In this document: piece after piece, positions 12,897 through 43,783 of the stretch | Layout: every line of letters starts with the position of its first letter | How positions within the stretch are numbered: the first letter of the stretch is position 1 | NCBI RefSeq assembly: GCF_019456655.1 | Contig: NZ_CP080332.1 | Span: 2,976,001 to 3,040,000 of the forward strand | From: Mycolicibacterium diernhoferi | GTDB lineage: Bacteria; Actinomycetota; Actinomycetes; Mycobacteriales; Mycobacteriaceae | DNA: 64,000 nucleotides | Reading direction: 5' to 3' | Notes under the pieces: generated by a model | The model's input: the letters and a program-made list of their open reading frames with translations, nothing else | What the model was told of the DNA's origin: nothing | Database searches by the model: none | Position numbers and translations under genes: made by a program

Positions 12897-13904
<1,008 letters not shown>

Positions 13905-13916
13905 AAATTAGTGGTG

Positions 13917-14171
13917 ATGCTCGAGATGAGTGAGAGCCCGGCCCTGCCCGCGCCGGTCGGCGCCGGTGTCTACAACGTCTACACCGGTGCCGCCGTCGAC
14001 GGCGCCGCCGGGGCCGTCATCCCGACTGCTGCTCAGCTGGGGCTGGAACCGCCGCGGTTCTGCGCCGAGTGTGGTCGCCGGATGATCGTGCAGGTCCGGC
14101 CGACGGGCTGGTGGGCCAAGTGTTCGCGGCACGGACAGGTGGACTCCACCGACCTGGATATGCGCCGATGA
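13917..14171 (+). CDS. bsaP: Biotin synthase auxiliary protein, small Cys-rich
   Basis: An 84-residue protein directly after bioB. The C-terminal half has FCAECGRRM and then [10 protein letters not shown], a CxxC plus C-x2-H arrangement that could bind iron-sulfur or zinc. The M. tuberculosis gene in this position (79 residues) was recently reported to be an auxiliary protein needed by mycobacterial BioB; the name is used on that basis and on synteny. The start is uncertain: GTG 13911, ATG 13917 and ATG 13926 are all in frame, and GGTGA about 8 nt upstream favours 13926 if a ribosome binding site is required. Its stop overlaps the first minicistron of the repeat array (ATGA). Confidence 0.78.
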
Positions 14172-14294
14172 GCGCTTGCGCGAAGAGGAAACTGGCACGA
14201 TGAGCGCTTGCGCGAAGAGGAAACTGGCACGATGAGCGCTTGCGCGAAGAGGAAACTGGCACGATGAGCGCTTGCGCGAAGAGGAAACTGGCAC
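14167..14294 (+). repeat. Four tandem 32-bp repeats forming a chain of overlapping minicistrons
   Basis: A 32-bp unit beginning GATGAGCGCTTGCG and ending CTGGCAC occurs four times without change. Each copy encodes ATG, ten more codons (peptide [11 protein letters not shown]) and TGA. Each stop overlaps the next start as ATGA. Starts are at 14168, 14200, 14232 and 14264; the next in the series, 14296, is the start of the DUF2567 gene. The bsaP stop overlaps the first start in the same way. The unit length (36 minus 4) keeps every junction coupled. An AGAGGA stretch lies 10 nt before each following ATG. Confidence 0.95.
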
Positions 14295-14295
14295 G

Positions 14296-14961
14296 ATGAG
14301 CGTTAACCCCCCACCTCGTCTCTCGCACCGCGCCGCGGCCCTGCGCATCATCGGAACCCTCACGGTCGCCGGTGTCGCGATCGGGGCACTGTGGGTTTTG
14401 CTGGCGCCGCCGGTCCAGGGTGTGGTGGCGCTGACCCGCTCCGGTAACCGGGTGCGGGCCTACCTCGGCAGCGATTCCGACCACTTCTTCCTGGGCGCGT
14501 TCCTGTTCATCGGACTGCTGAGTGCGCTGGCTGTCGTCGCCGCGGTGGCGGTGTGGCAGTGGCGGGCGCATCGCGGCCCTGCGCAGGTCCTGGGCCTCAC
14601 CGCCGGTATGGCTGCGGCCGCCGGTGCCGCTGCCGGAGTCGGTGCGGCACTTGCACATTGGCGCTTCGGCACCGTCGACGTGGACGGCGCGCCGGTCAGC
14701 GAGGCGAATCGGGTGCACTACGTGTTCGAGGCGCCCGCGGTGTTCTTCGGGCACGCGCCACTGGTCGTCGCGGCGAGCATCGTGGTGCCTGCCGCGGTGG
14801 CGGCACTGACCTACGCCCTGCTGACGGTCTCGACCACGCGTGACGATCTGGGCGCCTGGCCGCCGGTCGACTACGCCGGCGTGTACCCGCCCCGGGTCGT
14901 TCCGGCCGCAGCGGCGGACCCGGTGGCCGATCGACCCGCCGCCCCGCACGCTGCTCCGTAG
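14296..14961 (+). CDS. DUF2567 family membrane protein
   Basis: A 221-residue protein with four predicted membrane helices: one after a short N-terminal tail (about 17-40, TLTVAGVAIGALWVLL), a pair in the middle (FFLGAFLFIGLLSALAVV and the following GLTAGMAAAAGAAAG), and one near 155-178 (APLVVAASIVVPAAVAALTY). The length equals the M. tuberculosis gene that follows its bioB-bsaP pair. The ATG at 14296 is the last start in the minicistron series and gives MSVNPPPRLSHRAAALR. The function is unknown; the position suggests a link to the biotin operon that is not proven. Confidence 0.82.
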   Translation: MSVNPPPRLSHRAAALRIIGTLTVAGVAIGALWVLLAPPVQGVVALTRSGNRVRAYLGSDSDHFFLGAFLFIGLLSALAVVAAVAVWQWRAHRGPAQVLGLTAGMAAAAGAAAGVGAALAHWRFGTVDVDGAPVSEANRVHYVFEAPAVFFGHAPLVVAASIVVPAAVAALTYALLTVSTTRDDLGAWPPVDYAGVYPPRVVPAAAADPVADRPAAPHAAP

Positions 14962-15097
14962 CCGAACCGCTCGGCGCGGAAAAACATAGCCCCCACAAAG
15001 CCGGCTCACAGCGTTATATTTCGGGCGCATATCCGGGGCTCAGTCGTGCGCACGCAGGAATCCCCGTTCGACGTGACGAAACCTGTGGAGAGCCGCC

Positions 15098-16009
15098 ATG
15101 CCGCTGCTGGAGTACAAGACGACCCCGTCGTGGTTGCTGGAACCGCGTCGACGGGCGGTGTCGCTGATTCCGATTCCGCTGATGCGCAAGGCCCTGTACC
15201 TGATGATGATCCGCAAACGTGGCAACTTCACCGACCCGCAGACCTTCAACGAGAAGGTGAATTGGCGGATCTTCAACGATCGGCGGGACCGGATCGTCAA
15301 GGCCTGCGACAAGATGTGGATGAAGGAGATGGCCCGGGAGGCGTACCCGGGAGCGGACCTGCGTATCCCCGAGACCCTCTGGTCGGGAACCGATCTGCGG
15401 GACGCCCCGGACCTCACGACGTTGCAGCCGTGGGTGCTCAAGCCCAACGCCAGCAGCGGGCACGCACTCTTCGGCCCTGATGCGGACACCGATCTGGACG
15501 CGTTGGTACGCAAGACCCAGGTTTGGTTCGAGGAGACCCCGCTGGAACTGGGTGAGTGGGGCTACAGCGAGGCCCGCCCGCTGCTGTTGCTCGAGGAGCG
15601 CATCCCGACCCCGGACGGTAAGGCGCCCGTCGACTACAAGTTCTTCGTGTTCGACGGCCGCGTCGAGCTGGTCCAGGTGAATCGTGGCCGATTCGGCACC
15701 CGGCAGACCGCCACGTTCCTGGACGCCGATTGGCGCCGGCTGCCGGTGCGCTGGCGCATCCAGCCGGTGGCCGACGAGCCGAGGCCGGCCGAGCTGGACA
15801 AGATGCTGGAGATCGCCTCCACGCTCGGAGCCGACTGGGATTTCATCCGGGTCGACCTGTACGCCGTCGACGGCGAGGTCTGGTTCGGCGAGTACACCCC
15901 GTATCCGGGCAGCGGACTGCTGCGCTACAAGCCGATGAGTTTCGACGTGGAGCAGGGGCGGCACTGGAAGCTGCCGGCCCTCGTGGACGTGCAACGCGGC
16001 CGGCCGTGA
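15098..16009 (+). CDS. TupA-like ATP-grasp protein, copy 1
   Basis: A 303-residue protein of the ATPgrasp_TupA family, related to TupA of teichuronopeptide synthesis; relatives are usually found near cell-surface polysaccharide genes. Visible segments are GNFTDPQTFNEKVNWR, VLKPNASSGHALFGPD (probable nucleotide-binding strand and loop), DYKFFVFDGRVELVQV, and FIRVDLYAVDGEVWFGEY, where the D and E could bind metal. No signal peptide or membrane segment is seen. The substrate is unknown. It is paired with a second copy 1360 bp downstream. Confidence 0.8.
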   Translation: MPLLEYKTTPSWLLEPRRRAVSLIPIPLMRKALYLMMIRKRGNFTDPQTFNEKVNWRIFNDRRDRIVKACDKMWMKEMAREAYPGADLRIPETLWSGTDLRDAPDLTTLQPWVLKPNASSGHALFGPDADTDLDALVRKTQVWFEETPLELGEWGYSEARPLLLLEERIPTPDGKAPVDYKFFVFDGRVELVQVNRGRFGTRQTATFLDADWRRLPVRWRIQPVADEPRPAELDKMLEIASTLGADWDFIRVDLYAVDGEVWFGEYTPYPGSGLLRYKPMSFDVEQGRHWKLPALVDVQRGRP

Positions 16010-16457: not shown

Positions 16458-17369
16458 GTGCCCGCGCTGAAATATCGCACCACCCCACGCTGGTTGTCCG
16501 GTTCCCGCCAATGGGTCATCGACAGAATTCCGGTGCCGCTGATGCGGCGGGGCCTGTACCTCATCGTTTTCCGCAAGCCCGGCAACTTCACCGATCCGAA
16601 GACCTTCAACGAGAAGGTGAATTGGCGGATTCTCAACGACCGCCGGGATCGCATCGTCAAGGCCTGCGACAAGATGTGGATGAAGGAGATGGCCCGGGCG
16701 GCCTACCCGGGGGCGGATCTGCGCATCCCCGAGACCCTCTGGTCGGGAACCGATCTGCGGGACGCCCCAGACCTCACGACGTTGCCGCCGTGGGCGCTCA
16801 AGCCCAATGCCAGCAGCGGGCACGCGGTGTTCGGCCCGGACGCCGACACCGACCGGCAAGCGCTGATCGAGCAGACCCGCGACTGGCTCCGTGAGACGCC
16901 GGCGGAGTCTGGTGAGTGGGGCTACGCCCAAGCTCGCCCGGTCCTGCTGCTAGAGGAGCGCATCCCGACCCCGGACGGACTACCGCCCACCGATTACAAA
17001 TTCTTCGTCTTCCAAGGGAAGGTTGCGTTCATCCAGATCAATTGCGGACGCTTCCAAGGGAAGTTGACCGCCAGTTTCATGGACGTGGACTGGCGTCCGT
17101 TGCAGGTCTGCCAGCCTGGCAGGCCGGTGGTTGAAATGGAGCGTCCGCCGGAGTTGGACAAGATGATCGACTTTGCCCGCACCCTGGGCGCCGGGTGGGA
17201 CTTCATTCGTATCGACTTGTACGCCATCGACGGTGAGGTCTGGTTCGGCGAGTACACCCCGTATCCGGGCAGCGGGCTGCTGCCCTTCAAGCCGATGAGT
17301 TTCGACGTGGAGCAGGGTTGGCACTGGAAGTTGCCGGCCTTGGATGACGTCCAGCCCGGCCGGCCATGA
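16458..17369 (+). CDS. TupA-like ATP-grasp protein, copy 2
   Basis: This 303-residue paralogue of the preceding gene aligns with it end to end without gaps. A hand count gives about 81 differences, or roughly 73% identity. Residues 42-130 are nearly identical (for example KACDKMWMKEMAR), while the N-terminal 40 residues and 190-230 diverge. The same ATP-grasp segments are present (ALKPNASSGHAVFGPD, DYKFFVFQG, FIRIDLYAIDGEVWFGEY). The start is a GTG preceded by GGATGAGG. The pattern fits a tandem duplication followed by divergence of the substrate-facing parts, or partial gene conversion of the middle. The substrate is unknown. Confidence 0.8.
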   Translation: MPALKYRTTPRWLSGSRQWVIDRIPVPLMRRGLYLIVFRKPGNFTDPKTFNEKVNWRILNDRRDRIVKACDKMWMKEMARAAYPGADLRIPETLWSGTDLRDAPDLTTLPPWALKPNASSGHAVFGPDADTDRQALIEQTRDWLRETPAESGEWGYAQARPVLLLEERIPTPDGLPPTDYKFFVFQGKVAFIQINCGRFQGKLTASFMDVDWRPLQVCQPGRPVVEMERPPELDKMIDFARTLGAGWDFIRIDLYAIDGEVWFGEYTPYPGSGLLPFKPMSFDVEQGWHWKLPALDDVQPGRP

Positions 17370-30642: not shown

Positions 30643-31457
30643 TGATCGAGCCCGGGAAGCTCGCGGCGCTGCTGGCGACCGCCGCAGATGTCCTCGACGA
30701 CGCGTCGGGTCCCTTCGTCGCCGGGCACCGGGCCGACTCCGCAGTCCGCAAGCAGGGCAACGACTTCGCCACCGAAGTGGACCTCGCCATCGAACGTCAG
30801 GTGGTGGCCGCGCTCACCGAGCGGACCGGTATCGGTGTGCACGGTGAGGAATTCGGGGGTGCCCCCATCGATTCCGAACTGGTCTGGGTGCTCGACCCGA
30901 TCGACGGCACCTTCAACTATGCGGCCGGCTCGCCGATGGCGGCGATCCTGCTCGGGCTGCTGGCCGACGGTAAGCCGGTCGGCGGGCTGACCTGGCTGCC
31001 GTTCACCGGTAACCGCTACATCGCGGCCGTCGGCGGCCCGGTGCGCGACAACGGGACCGAGTTGCCGGCGCTCAAGCACACCACCACGCTCGCGGATTCG
31101 ATCATCGGAATCCAGACGTTCAACATCGACTCGCGCGGACGCTTCCCGGGCCGCTACCGGGCCGAGGTGCTGGCCAATCTGAGCCGGGTGTCCTCCCGCA
31201 TCCGCATGCACGGTGCCACCGGTGTCGACCTGGCGTATGTCGCGGCCGGGATCCTCGGTGGCGCGATCAGTTTCGGCCACCACATCTGGGATCACGCCGC
31301 GGGCGTGACGCTGGTGCGCGCCGCCGGTGGCATCGTCACCGACCTGTCCGGTGCCGACTGGACCCCGGAATCGAAATCGGCGCTGGCGGCCGCTCCCGGC
31401 ATCCACGAGCAGATACTCGAATTGGTGGCCGCCGCCGGTTCCCCGGAGGATTACTGA
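30642..31457 (+). CDS. impA: Inositol monophosphatase family protein
   Basis: A 271-residue magnesium-dependent phosphatase of the IMPase family. Metal-binding motifs are [14 protein letters not shown] (near residue 86) and [15 protein letters not shown] (near 215). Length and position match ImpA, which lies between hisA and hisF in mycobacteria and corynebacteria. It may act on inositol phosphate or histidinol phosphate; the operon hints at the latter, but M. tuberculosis has a separate histidinol-phosphatase, so the substrate is unsettled. Confidence 0.88.
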
Positions 31458-31458
31458 C

Positions 31459-32232
31459 ATGGGTGTAGCGGTTCGGGTCATCCCGTGCCTGGACGTCGAT
31501 GACGGCCGGGTGGTCAAGGGTGTCAACTTCGAGAATCTCAGGGACGCCGGCGACCCTGTCGAACTGGCGGCCGCCTATGACGCCGCGGGCGCCGACGAGT
31601 TGACCTTCCTGGATGTCACCGCCTCGTCGTCGGGTCGCAGCACCATGCTCGACGTGGTGCGCCGCACCGCCGAGCAGGTGTTCATCCCGTTGACGGTCGG
31701 CGGCGGGGTGCGTTCGGTCGCCGATGTGGACGTCCTGTTGCGGGCCGGCGCCGACAAGGTCTCGGTCAACACCGCGGCGATCGCCCGTCCGGAACTGCTC
31801 GCCGAGCTGTCGCGTCAGTTCGGCTCGCAGTGCATCGTGTTGAGTGTGGATGCCCGCACGGTGCCCGAGGGATCCGCCCCGACCCCGTCGGGCTGGGAGG
31901 TCACCACCCACGGCGGGCGCCGCGGCACCGGCATCGACGCGGTCGAATGGGCCCGCCGCGGAGCCGAACTCGGGGTGGGGGAGATCCTGCTGAACTCGAT
32001 GGACGCCGACGGCACCAAGGCCGGTTTCGACCTACCGATGCTGCACGCGGTGCGCGAGGCGGTGACGGTGCCGGTGATCGCCAGCGGCGGCGCGGGCGCG
32101 GTGGGCGACTTCGCCCCCGCGGTGAAGGCCGGAGCCGATGCGGTGCTCGCCGCCAGCGTGTTCCACTTCGGTGAGCTCACGATCGGTGAGGTGAAGGCCG
32201 CCATGGCTGCCGAGGGGATCGAGGTCCGATGA
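31459..32232 (+). CDS. hisF: Imidazole glycerol phosphate synthase, cyclase subunit
   Basis: A 257-residue beta/alpha-barrel that joins HisH-derived ammonia to PRFAR, giving IGP and [25 protein letters not shown] holds the first catalytic Asp, and [16 protein letters not shown] the second. [11 protein letters not shown] and [13 protein letters not shown] are phosphate-binding loops. The ATG is one base after the impA stop. The last four codons (GAG GTC CGA TGA) are part of the 38-bp repeat unit, and the stop overlaps the first minicistron (ATGA). Confidence 0.97.
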
Positions 32233-32334
32233 GCGCAGCGAAGAGGGCGAATCCAGGTGAGGTCCGATGAGCGCAGCGAAGAGGGCGAATCCAGGTGAGG
32301 TCCGATGAGCGCAGCGAAGAGGGCGAATCCAGGT
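32221..32334 (+). repeat. Three tandem 38-bp repeats forming minicistrons between hisF and hisI
   Basis: A 38-bp unit beginning GAGGTCCGATGAGCGC and ending GAATCCAGGT occurs three times without change, followed by a partial copy that runs into hisI. Each copy encodes ATG, twelve more codons (peptide [13 protein letters not shown]) and TGA, with each stop overlapping the next start as ATGA. Starts are at 32229, 32267 and 32305, and then 32343, the hisI start. AGGTGAGG before each ATG is a possible ribosome binding site. The unit carries a copy of the hisF 3' end. It shares ATGAGCGC...GCGAAGAGG with the array at 14167. Confidence 0.95.
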
Positions 32335-32342
32335 GAGGTCCG

Positions 32343-32690
32343 ATGAGCCTCGATCCCGCGATCGCTTCGCGCCTCAAGCGCAACGAGGCCGGCCTGTTCA
32401 CCGCGGTGGTACAGGAACACGGCACCGGTGACGTGCTGATGGTCGCCTGGATGGACGACGACGCGCTGGCCCGCACCCTGGAAACCCGTGAGGCGACCTA
32501 CTTCTCGCGGTCCCGGGGTGAACAGTGGATCAAGGGCGCCACCTCCGGGCACACCCAGCACGTGCATTCGGTGCGCCTGGACTGCGACGGCGACTGTGTG
32601 CTGCTGGTGGTCGATCAGGTCGGCGGGGCCTGCCACACCGGCGATCACACCTGCTTCGACGCCGATCTGCTGCTGCCGGCCGACGACTGA
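32343..32690 (+). CDS. hisI: Phosphoribosyl-AMP cyclohydrolase
   Basis: A 115-residue zinc enzyme that opens the purine ring of phosphoribosyl-AMP, an early step of histidine synthesis. [20 protein letters not shown] is typical. The metal site is seen in [20 protein letters not shown] followed by GDHTCF. It is the monofunctional form (no HisE domain). The ATG at 32343 is the last start of the minicistron chain, so its translation probably depends on re-initiation through the repeats. Confidence 0.97.
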
Positions 32691-41903: not shown

Positions 41904-43783
41904 CGGTGACGACCCTGGCCTACATCCCGAGCCCCGCTCAGGGTGTCTGGTACCTCGGCCCCGTCCCGCTCCGCGCCTACGCCCTGTGCATCATCGTCGG
42001 CATCGTCGCCGCGCTCGTCATCGGTGACCGTCGCTGGGAGGCCCGCGGCGGCGAGCGTGGCGTGATCTACGACATCGCCTTGTGGGCGGTGCCGTTCGGT
42101 CTGGTCGGTGGCCGGCTCTATCACGTCCTGACCGACTGGCCGACCTACTTCGGGGCGGGTGGCGCCGGGCTCGGTGCGGCATTCCGGATCTGGGACGGCG
42201 GTCTCGGAATCTGGGGTGCGGTGGCGCTCGGTGCCGTCGGTGCGTGGATCGCCTGCAGGCGGCGCGGTATTCCGCTGCCCGCGTTCGGTGATGCGATTGC
42301 ACCGGGAATCATCCTGGCGCAGGCGATCGGTCGGCTCGGCAACTACTTCAACCAGGAACTCTACGGGCGCGCCACAGATCTGCCGTGGGGCCTGGAGATC
42401 TACGAGCGGGTCGATGCCGCCGGATTCCGGGACACCCTCAACGGGGTGTCCACCGGGAAGCTGGTGGCCGTCGTGCACCCGACGTTCCTGTACGAACTGC
42501 TGTGGAATCTGCTGATTTTCGCGCTGCTGATCTGGGCGGACCGGCGCTTCAAGCTCGGCCACGGCAGGGTGTTCGCGCTGTACGTGGCCGGGTACTGCCT
42601 GGGCCGGTTCTGGATCGAGTTGATGCGCAGCGATACCGCGACGCTGATCGCCGGGATCCGGGTCAACTCGTTCACCGCGACATTCGTGTTCATCGCCGCC
42701 GTCGTCTACATCATGGCGGCGCCCAAGGGTCGTGAGGATCCGGCGAGCTTGCGGGGCAACGCCCCGGCCGATCGGGATGCCGCGGCCGAGGAACCAGCCA
42801 CCGAGGTGATCGCGGCGGGCGCGATGACCGGTGTCGTCGCAGCGGCCACGGCCGCGGGTGCGGACGAGGCGGGTGCGGACGAGGCGGGTGCGGACGAGGA
42901 CGAAGGCACCGCCGCTTCCCAGGAGCCCGACCTCGCCGTCGTGGACGCCGCCGAAGAGGCCGATGAGGTCGAAGAGGGCGTCGCTACCGAAGTGCTCGTG
43001 GTGGCCGAGGCCGACCAGGAGGCCGACGGGTCGGCGGAAGCAGAGCTGGCCGACGAACTCGACGCCGAGGAGGAGGCCGCAGCCGAAGAGTCTGAGGCCG
43101 AGAAGTCGGTGGCGGAAGCCGAGGGCGAAGCCGAAGCGGAAGCGCTTGAGTCCGAAGCCGATATCGAGGCCGAGGCCGAAGCAGAAGCGGAGCTGGCCGA
43201 CGCGCTCGACGCCGAAGAGGAAGCCGCTACCGAAGAATCGGCGGCTGAAGCCGAGGCCGAGGTGGAAGCCGAAGCGCTTGAGTCCGAAGCCGATATCGAG
43301 GCCGAGGCCGAAGCCGAAGAGCTCGAGGGCCAAGCCGACGAGGACGCCGACTCGGAGACCGAAGCCGAAGCCGAAACCGAGGTGGCCGAAGCGGAAGCCA
43401 CCGACGAAGCCGAACTCGAAGAGGCCGAGGCTGAAGCAGAAGCCGAAGAACTCGAGTCCGAAGCCGATTTGGCCGAAGACGCTGAGCAGGACACCCCGGC
43501 AGTCGACGAGTCCACGGGTGAAGCGGAGGCTGTCGAATCTGTCGTCTCCGATGAGGCCGAGGCCGAAGAGATCGTCGCCGAGGTGCTCGAATCGGTCGAT
43601 GCTGCCACCGCCGAAGCCGAAGACGTCGACGGCGATGAAGTCGAGGCCGAAGACGTCGAAGCCGAATCCGGTTCGGCCACTGAAGAGTCCGAGCCACCGG
43701 CCGCTCCGCAAGCGCCTGCTGCCACCCCCGCTGCTGCTGGTAAGACTTCTCGTCGCCCGCGGTGGTTGCGGCGGAAGGGCTGA
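41900..43783 (+). CDS. lgt: Prolipoprotein diacylglyceryl transferase with a long acidic tail
   Basis: A 627-residue protein. Residues about 1-275 are the membrane enzyme that attaches diacylglycerol to the lipobox cysteine of prolipoproteins; the Lgt signature is GRLGNYFNQELYGR near residue 143, with VHPTFLYELLWN near 192 and about seven helices. Residues 276-600 are a low-complexity Glu/Ala-rich tail with internal repeats (AGADE three times; EALESEADIEAEAEAEA twice). The end is basic (KTSRRPRWLRRKG). The M. tuberculosis protein (468) has a shorter extension. The tail is probably cytoplasmic and disordered; its role is unknown. The ATG overlaps trpA. Confidence 0.95.
   Translation: MTVTTLAYIPSPAQGVWYLGPVPLRAYALCIIVGIVAALVIGDRRWEARGGERGVIYDIALWAVPFGLVGGRLYHVLTDWPTYFGAGGAGLGAAFRIWDGGLGIWGAVALGAVGAWIACRRRGIPLPAFGDAIAPGIILAQAIGRLGNYFNQELYGRATDLPWGLEIYERVDAAGFRDTLNGVSTGKLVAVVHPTFLYELLWNLLIFALLIWADRRFKLGHGRVFALYVAGYCLGRFWIELMRSDTATLIAGIRVNSFTATFVFIAAVVYIMAAPKGREDPASLRGNAPADRDAAAEEPATEVIAAGAMTGVVAAATAAGADEAGADEAGADEDEGTAASQEPDLAVVDAAEEADEVEEGVATEVLVVAEADQEADGSAEAELADELDAEEEAAAEESEAEKSVAEAEGEAEAEALESEADIEAEAEAEAELADALDAEEEAATEESAAEAEAEVEAEALESEADIEAEAEAEELEGQADEDADSETEAEAETEVAEAEATDEAELEEAEAEAEAEELESEADLAEDAEQDTPAVDESTGEAEAVESVVSDEAEAEEIVAEVLESVDAATAEAEDVDGDEVEAEDVEAESGSATEESEPPAAPQAPAATPAAAGKTSRRPRWLRRKG
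42854..42898 (+). repeat. Three tandem 15-bp repeats in the lgt tail
   Basis: GCGGGTGCGGACGAG occurs three times in direct succession and encodes AGADE three times. It is in frame, so copy-number change would alter tail length without a frameshift. Confidence 0.9.
43139..43314 (+). repeat. Two 44-bp identical repeats 132 bp apart in the lgt tail
   Basis: The segments 43139-43182 and 43271-43314 are identical and encode EALESEADIEAEAEA. The offset of 132 bp is 44 codons, so the tail grew in frame by duplication. Confidence 0.85.

Follow-up and report, generated by a model that had tools for sequence, protein, structure and literature searches.

Mycobacterial interspersed repetitive units (MIRUs) reportedly go back to Supply et al. 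1997. Two groups of repeats from other bacteria offer further points of comparison. REPs are short imperfect palindromes that occur extragenically in many dispersed copies, and Rickettsia palindromic elements (RPEs) are palindromic repeats that are tolerated in frame inside genes; we know of no preference of RPEs for stop-start junctions. The repeat described here is likewise palindromic and tolerated in frame, and RPEs are far longer. MIRUs are presented in one passage as seemingly mobile short repeats at start codons, with an internal reading frame coupled at a −4 nt spacing (PMC12548453), and another passage gives the senX3-regX3 MIRUs as 77 or 53 bp long and restricts MIRUs to M. leprae and the M. 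tuberculosis complex (PMC4213456). Myt-1, Myt-8 and Myt-11 appear in an excerpt of PMC2267715 as stem-loop repeat families of M. tuberculosis of 65–92 bp, with Myt-11 containing MIRU repeats. Judged by description, our repeat resembles these Myt families as a dispersed mycobacterial repeat with stem-loops and differs from them in their length and their host, M. tuberculosis.

Within the window, a 64,000-nt stretch of the M. diernhoferi genome, four 32-bp units of 100% identity occupy positions 14168–14299 between bsaP and the DUF2567 gene (Tandem Repeats Finder score 274, 100% match). Each unit consists of an ATG, ten codons and a TGA and overlaps the next unit by 4 nt, and an ATGA is found at all five junctions from bsaP through the units to the DUF2567 gene. 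The first ATGA holds the bsaP stop, the TGA of bsaP being the TGA of unit 1. Reading the sequence bore out the preliminary description of the array as four identical coupled minicistrons with five ATGA junctions, and its gene names bsaP and DUF2567 were upheld by matches to NF052237 and PF10821. The order bioB-bsaP-rv1591/msmeg3196 is given as a predicted operon in a section of PMC11099021. A search of positions 13900–15000 against Rfam 15 gave no match at E values up to 1, and a scan that returned one terminator-like site, at 14370–14391 inside the DUF2567 gene, returned no promoter-like site. Further downstream, two similar 303-aa ORFs lie in tandem (15098–16009 and 16458–17369), an apparent gene duplication.

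Features of the bsaP and hisF regions in the window; each minicistron row starts at the ATG of its unit.
Feature	Position	Strand	Basis
bioB, biotin synthase	12909..13904	+	ORF; Radical_SAM and BATS domains
bsaP, biotin synthase auxiliary protein	13911..14171	+	NF052237, 86.4 bits, E 9e-25
Hairpin core 1, CGATGAGCGCTTGCGCGAAGAG (same 22-mer also at 14198, 14230 and 14262)	14166..14187	+	0 matches in 40 Markov controls
Minicistron 1, 11 residues	14168..14203	+	Sequence reading
Minicistron 2, identical to 1	14200..14235	+	Sequence reading
Minicistron 3, identical to 1	14232..14267	+	Sequence reading
Minicistron 4, identical to 1; stop overlaps DUF2567 ATG at 14296	14264..14299	+	
DUF2567 gene, next after bioB-bsaP	14296..14961	+	PF10821, 226 bits, E 3e-67
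hisF	31327..32232	+	TIGR00735; HisF domain from about residue 47 of the ORF as listed
Sister array, three 38-bp units of the short-loop version, CGATGAGCGCAGCGAAGAG, ATGA overlaps	32229..32342	+	
hisI, its start within the final ATGA of the sister array	32343..32690	+	PRA-CH

In our view the array probably arose when a short, dispersed, hairpin-like repeat of Mycobacterium expanded in tandem at this place, with the minicistrons as a frame-neutral by-product. This reading builds on the observed anatomy of the array and on the dispersal, gene-end bias, spacing tendency, covariation and interspecies copy-number differences of the repeat, and it would have the repeat be mobile, its frames translated and its presence neutral.

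Copies of the repeat are scattered over the M. diernhoferi genome (5,998,503 bases, one contig), in which the pattern GAGCGCN{0,6}GCGAAGAG gave 22 matches versus one for the reversed control, and CGATGAGCGCNNGCGCGAAGAG with up to three mismatches gave 35 versus one, 28 of them with up to two mismatches. Across the genus, the 19-mer core TGAGCGCTYGCGCGAAGAR is present in 671 copies in 44 of 69 Mycobacterium genomes with no match for the reversed pattern, and a longer pattern with an RTGA 31–33 nt past the unit start was found in 78 of 148 genomes, again with a control of zero. Given reversed-pattern controls of 1, 1, 0 and 0 and similar arrays in many assemblies, the probability that we are dealing with a chance repeat or an assembly artefact is negligible. 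For the four-unit array itself an artefact is unlikely because the same junction in the M. aurum assembly holds two units and arrays of this kind turn up in many genomes.

Among 38 named genomes, 31 contain the 19-mer, one of them (L062) in a single copy, and the other seven lack it: L054, L065, L087, L088 (M. celatum), L093, L096 (M. intermedium) and L100 (M. gordonae). The genomes without the core thus include M. celatum, M. intermedium and M. gordonae, which we take to be slow growers. In 141 genomes from 30 other genera of the family, the 19-mer occurred once in total. Our best reading is a dispersed hairpin repeat that is specific to the genus and MIRU-like in design. Carriage by phages was considered and rejected, as seven viral contigs match the 19-mer and none of them has the GA before it; we took them for chance coding matches. 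A literature search by themes and by sequence words, which covered few subscription papers, returned no paper apparently describing this repeat. In one genome (G123), a pattern with A, C or G at position 1 gave 57 matches, all on one strand. In several genomes the element lies just before genes whose products start with (I/V)LVAN (L216, L217, L236 and L121); these genes are presumably biotin carboxylase-like, and one kind of junction would thus have been used repeatedly.

The genomic context of the repeat was analyzed at 92 sites, 80 listed for ten other genomes and 12 from M. diernhoferi; for some genomes the listed sites are a part of the copies (e.g., 5 of 23 in G049), and the search pattern left the upstream and downstream context free. 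At 57 of the 92 sites, the upstream coding frame that scores best has the TGA of the element itself as its stop. Counting one site per orthologous group, this holds for 42 of 72 sites, compared to only one of 69 non-element GATGAGC words from the window and its flanks. The shared core had been proposed to recur at other stop-start overlaps, and these 42 non-orthologous sites agree with that proposal. Relative to the upstream coding frame, 75 of the 92 sites are co-directional, five are reversed and 12 are unclear. Moreover, GA precedes the TGA at 90 of the 92 sites, although the pattern did not demand it.

This preference for stop-start (DTGA) sites with small overlapping frames, at 42 of 72 sites against a null of 1 of 69, is shared with MIRUs, and the design is the same as that given in part of PMC12548453, with mobile-looking short repeats at start codons and a frame coupled at −4 nt. 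That the array consists of MIRUs proper is nevertheless quite unlikely. Its 22-nt core sits in units of mostly 29–33 bp as opposed to the 53 or 77 bp at senX3-regX3, the same passage of PMC4213456 confines MIRUs to M. leprae and the M. tuberculosis complex, and the core is absent from the seven named genomes listed above. The repeat differs from MIRUs in its unit lengths of 29, 30, 32 and 33 bp (also 36, and 34–44 in a short-loop version) versus 53–77 bp, in its presence in many other mycobacteria, in its covarying hairpin-like core and in its occurrence away from stop-start junctions as well, the two being set apart here by their descriptions. For mycobacteria outside the M. tuberculosis complex, we thus describe a MIRU-like element with a covarying quasi-palindrome, which makes the spread of MIRU-type repeats without a known transposase approachable in other species.

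The distance from the repeat to the next start follows a pattern. At 23 of the 42 junction sites, the start of the last unit is followed at a distance of exactly 32 nt by an NTGA, and at five by an ATG at 29, both spacings being 3n−4; 14 sites show neither. Arrays in the sample have periods of 29, 30, 32 and 33, along with doubled units of 60 and 64, and, doubled units aside, no period of 1 mod 3 was seen. Among the 92 sampled sites, all 21 arrays with a period of 32 (or 64) lie at upstream stops, the score of one, L280, being weak. Arrays with periods of 30 or 33 are mixed, lying inside frames on either strand or at the front of a downstream frame, and in two of the seven 33-bp arrays of the sample the upstream gene ends in the element. 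The proposal that a unit length of 3n−4 is exactly what preserves coupling therefore stands as a tendency, carried by the 21 period-32 arrays, and fails as a strict rule. Outside this sample it is broken by L390, where 34-bp short-loop units lie at the end of a gene, by L121, where the gap of a single copy is 34 nt, and by another listed match whose gap is 31 nt; in addition, arrays of the C1/G16 class described below have a period of 32 (L324, L331) or a gap of 64 (L316) away from upstream stops.

The core has the layout N(-2) GA N(1) GA GCGC NN GCGC GA N(16) GA N(19), which we summarize as N-GA-Y-GA-GCGC-NN-GCGC-GA-R-GA-N followed by a variable tail of about 10 nt. Apart from the GA at −1/0, the GA positions were set by the search patterns and are invariant by construction. 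Position −2 lies outside the search pattern, and at the 72 non-orthologous sites it covaries with position 19 (C:G 50, T:A 14, T.G 6, C.A 2; Fisher p 1e-8). Positions 1 and 16 covary as well. In the same 69 genomes, T1/A16 is represented by 671 copies compared to four copies of T1/G16 with a TY loop, and in 198 genomes a search for T1 with a base other than A at position 16 gave at least 13 TY-loop rows that are T1/G16, these four included. With A, C or G at position 1 and position 16 free, the 198 genomes yielded 690 matches versus 39 for the reversed control. Among the 150 of these matches that were listed, with tandem copies counted singly, 140 are C1/G16, five C1/A16, two C1/C16 and three other, so that 140 of the 147 listed C1 rows have G16. 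Codon synonymy was rejected as the source of the 1/16 covariation, since the synonymous combinations GAT..GAG and GAC..GAA are rare (4 copies versus 671 in the 69 genomes, and 5 versus 140 among the 150 listed rows).

The C1/G16 class provides a second background for the outer pair. At 40 fetched sites, positions −2/19 are C:G in 21, T:A in 12, G:C in four and other in three, and with one site for each of 33 orthologous groups the counts are 20, 9, 2 and 2, indicating that three pair types recur on this background. Copies of this class contain no ATG and thus cannot be minicistrons. Their periods are mostly 30 or 33 (30, 32, 33 and 36 overall, plus single gaps of 64 and 211), and their upstream frames are mixed: seven of 40 end at a TGA at −2, and several lie on the reverse strand. 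As covariation persists in copies without an ATG, the pairing is a property of the element and not of re-initiation. In one C1/G16 array (L341, G087:C1:5358072-5360322), eight 33-bp copies are accompanied by a ninth copy 211 bp away. Compensatory changes are also found inside the stem. In one diverged unit of the M. diernhoferi genome (L115), A4:T13 replaces G4:C13, and in the M. fortuitum version, as read from its sequence, GCC...GGC has C:G in place of G6:C11.

Beyond the core, a signal at positions −3/20 is present in the T:A class and absent in the C:G class, and a mutual-information signal at −4/21 was rejected as base pairing. The −2/19 pairing is found in 64 of 72 first units compared to 23 of 40 non-first units, and some diverged array units have a GA base changed or lost, which suggests, in small numbers, that structure matters more for founding copies, and so for dispersal, than for the present function of each copy. 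When folded in isolation, the core forms just a short inner stem, of 3–4 bp as RNA, and the version found at hisF forms 2+2 bp; neither does better than its shuffles. G.A oppositions can form sheared pairs. We infer from the layout that the core could form a hairpin with sheared G.A pairs.

The geometry of the core brings two further explanations into play. A REP-like element moved on a single-stranded hairpin by a resident Y1 transposase (RAYT or IS200/IS605-like) would account for the hairpin-like shape and for a flank-side base at −2 that covaries with an internal base in first units and less so in internal units. The likeness to REPs and BIMEs extends to the short imperfect palindrome in many dispersed copies; our repeat differs from the REP/BIME and RAYT systems in often lying at stop-start overlaps and in having no Y1 match in its own genome. 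The PF01797 profile, our search for a mobilizing enzyme, found no match in the M. diernhoferi genome, which makes a REP/RAYT route unlikely there, and PF01797 matches occur in 12 of the 69 genus genomes compared to 44 of the same 69 with the repeat. We therefore regard this explanation as very unlikely. A locally multiplied target site for a dimeric DNA-binding protein would fit an interrupted inverted repeat with covarying outer bases, but the GA has the same sense on both arms, unlike in a symmetric dimer site, and the stop-start position and the spacing tendency would be left unexplained, so that we hold such a site to be highly improbable.

The comparison of filled with empty sites over many species covers the bsaP junction. 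In M. aurum (L023), it carries two 32-bp minicistrons. A regular-expression search of 80 named bsaP loci found one to four units of 33 bp in 17, two units of 32 bp in one (M. aurum) and no unit at the junction in the remaining 62. In line with the expectation that copy number would change in whole multiples, the junction thus holds 32n bp in M. diernhoferi and M. aurum and 33n bp in the 17 loci. The other bsaP junctions displayed are mostly bare stop-start overlaps, some with degenerate remnants; in L101 the junction is an empty ATGA and the match lies away from it. In the M. fortuitum group, the 33-bp unit at this junction is in frame with DUF2567, and in L025 the translation MSLSGEEQKAP MSLSGEEQKAP MSLSGEEH... 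reads into DUF2567. A dispersed family of this 33-bp version was rejected, since one to four matches were found in five of eight genomes and eight of the ten listed places are at bsaP.

Copy number also differs at other orthologous sites, with 1/4/3 units (L204, L269, L125), 4/1 (L209, L228), 3/1 (L219, L267) and 1/4 (L221, L273), and with two units in L280 versus four in the bsaP array L106, which are grouped solely on the similarity of their translated flanks. Within 32-bp arrays, tails share 87% identity compared to 40% between sites, a pattern that points to recent local expansion. The arrays could serve as variable-number typing markers for these species.

Differences in whole units (0, 1–4 x 33, 2 x 32, 4 x 32) and the exact coupling geometry of all four M. 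diernhoferi units would also be expected if the array were an expression rheostat, in which the supply of ribosomes to the DUF2567 gene (and to hisI) depends on the count of minicistrons and selection acts on copy number for that reason. The same repeats, however, lie at dozens of unrelated places, including the inside of coding frames, and the 62 named bsaP loci do without a unit at the junction. Moreover, deletion of the last gene of the operon had no effect on growth in the biotin tests reported for M. smegmatis and M. tuberculosis in a section of PMC11099021. The tails, too, are unlike dedicated Shine-Dalgarno sites: at 24 sites, mean anti-SD energies were −7.18 for the tail, −6.50 for the host flank and −7.71 for the shuffled tail, and this role was rejected because the differences were not significant. 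A rheostat is therefore unlikely. Nor is the idea that a unit exists for the sake of its minicistron supported in that form, in view of the C1/G16 copies, with their periods of mostly 30 or 33 bp and no ATG, and of the in-frame M. fortuitum unit.

Under the preferred reading of a locally expanded dispersed repeat, a Y:R pair that is T:A makes the 5′ arm read (C/T)GATGA, a stop-start overlap. Most of these T:A copies are located at the ends of genes, are oriented with transcription and typically lie 3n−4 (32, sometimes 29) from the next start, a spacing that preserves both the upstream stop and the downstream start and turns each copy into a coupled frame of 11 codons. For copies within reading frames or at their front, the spacing is mostly 3n (30, 33). 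Arrays gain and lose whole units, presumably by slippage or unequal exchange. Most likely, the repeat is dispersed in the form of a structured DNA (or RNA) unit, persists wherever translation stays intact and expands locally. As an expected consequence of 3n−4 coupled frames, a ribosome leaving bsaP would probably cross the minicistrons by termination-reinitiation, serially through four frames, in keeping with the coupling given for MIRU frames in PMC12548453. As a probable by-product, the 11-codon frames would render the repeat harmless. More speculatively, and with clear reservations, the repeat might represent an undescribed class of non-autonomous mycobacterial mobile element. In that case a tandem G.A hairpin would be recognized, its 5′ arm doubling as a stop-start pair, and the element could insert into operons at RTGA junctions and leave translation unbroken. 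An enzyme still to be described would carry it through the genus, and its targets would possibly be chosen by pairing of the flank base(s) −2 (and −3) with the internal bases 19 (and 20). The family as a whole offers hundreds of natural translational-coupling experiments, in which the same gene pair comes with 0, 2 or 4 minicistrons or with in-frame variants.

A sister array lies between hisF and hisI in the window. Each of its 38-bp units forms a 13-residue frame, as translated from the sequence, and carries the 8-nt GAGGTCCG, which is identical to the 3′ end of hisF before unit 1; the stem is shortened to GC-GCA-GC. Similar arrangements include three 38-bp units before a gene with a hisI-resembling start (L394) and single 32-bp units before hisI-like starts (L229, L254). 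Searching 198 genomes for the short-loop pattern gave at least 61 matches in 43 of them, with a control not far below, and many of the matches listed do not covary (C1/T16, C1/C16, A1/C16 and others), so that single short-loop copies are weak evidence for the family. In all five short-loop tandem arrays that were fetched, T:A or C:G is retained and the location is a gene end; their periods are 34, 36, 38, 42 and 44, and in each of them the upstream frame ends at the first unit.

Elsewhere, arrays of 34, 36 and 38 bp follow ends that are hisF-like by resemblance (L390, L392, L394). Another hairpin-like match in the window, CGATGAGGCCGAGGCCGAAGAG at 43549, lies inside a GAAGCC-rich repeat region (43120–43666) and may be a coding repeat only. 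At positions 759444–759548 of the M. diernhoferi genome (L393), three copies of a short-loop C:G version, GACGAGCGCAGCGAGGA, are found at a gene end with a period of 44 bp.
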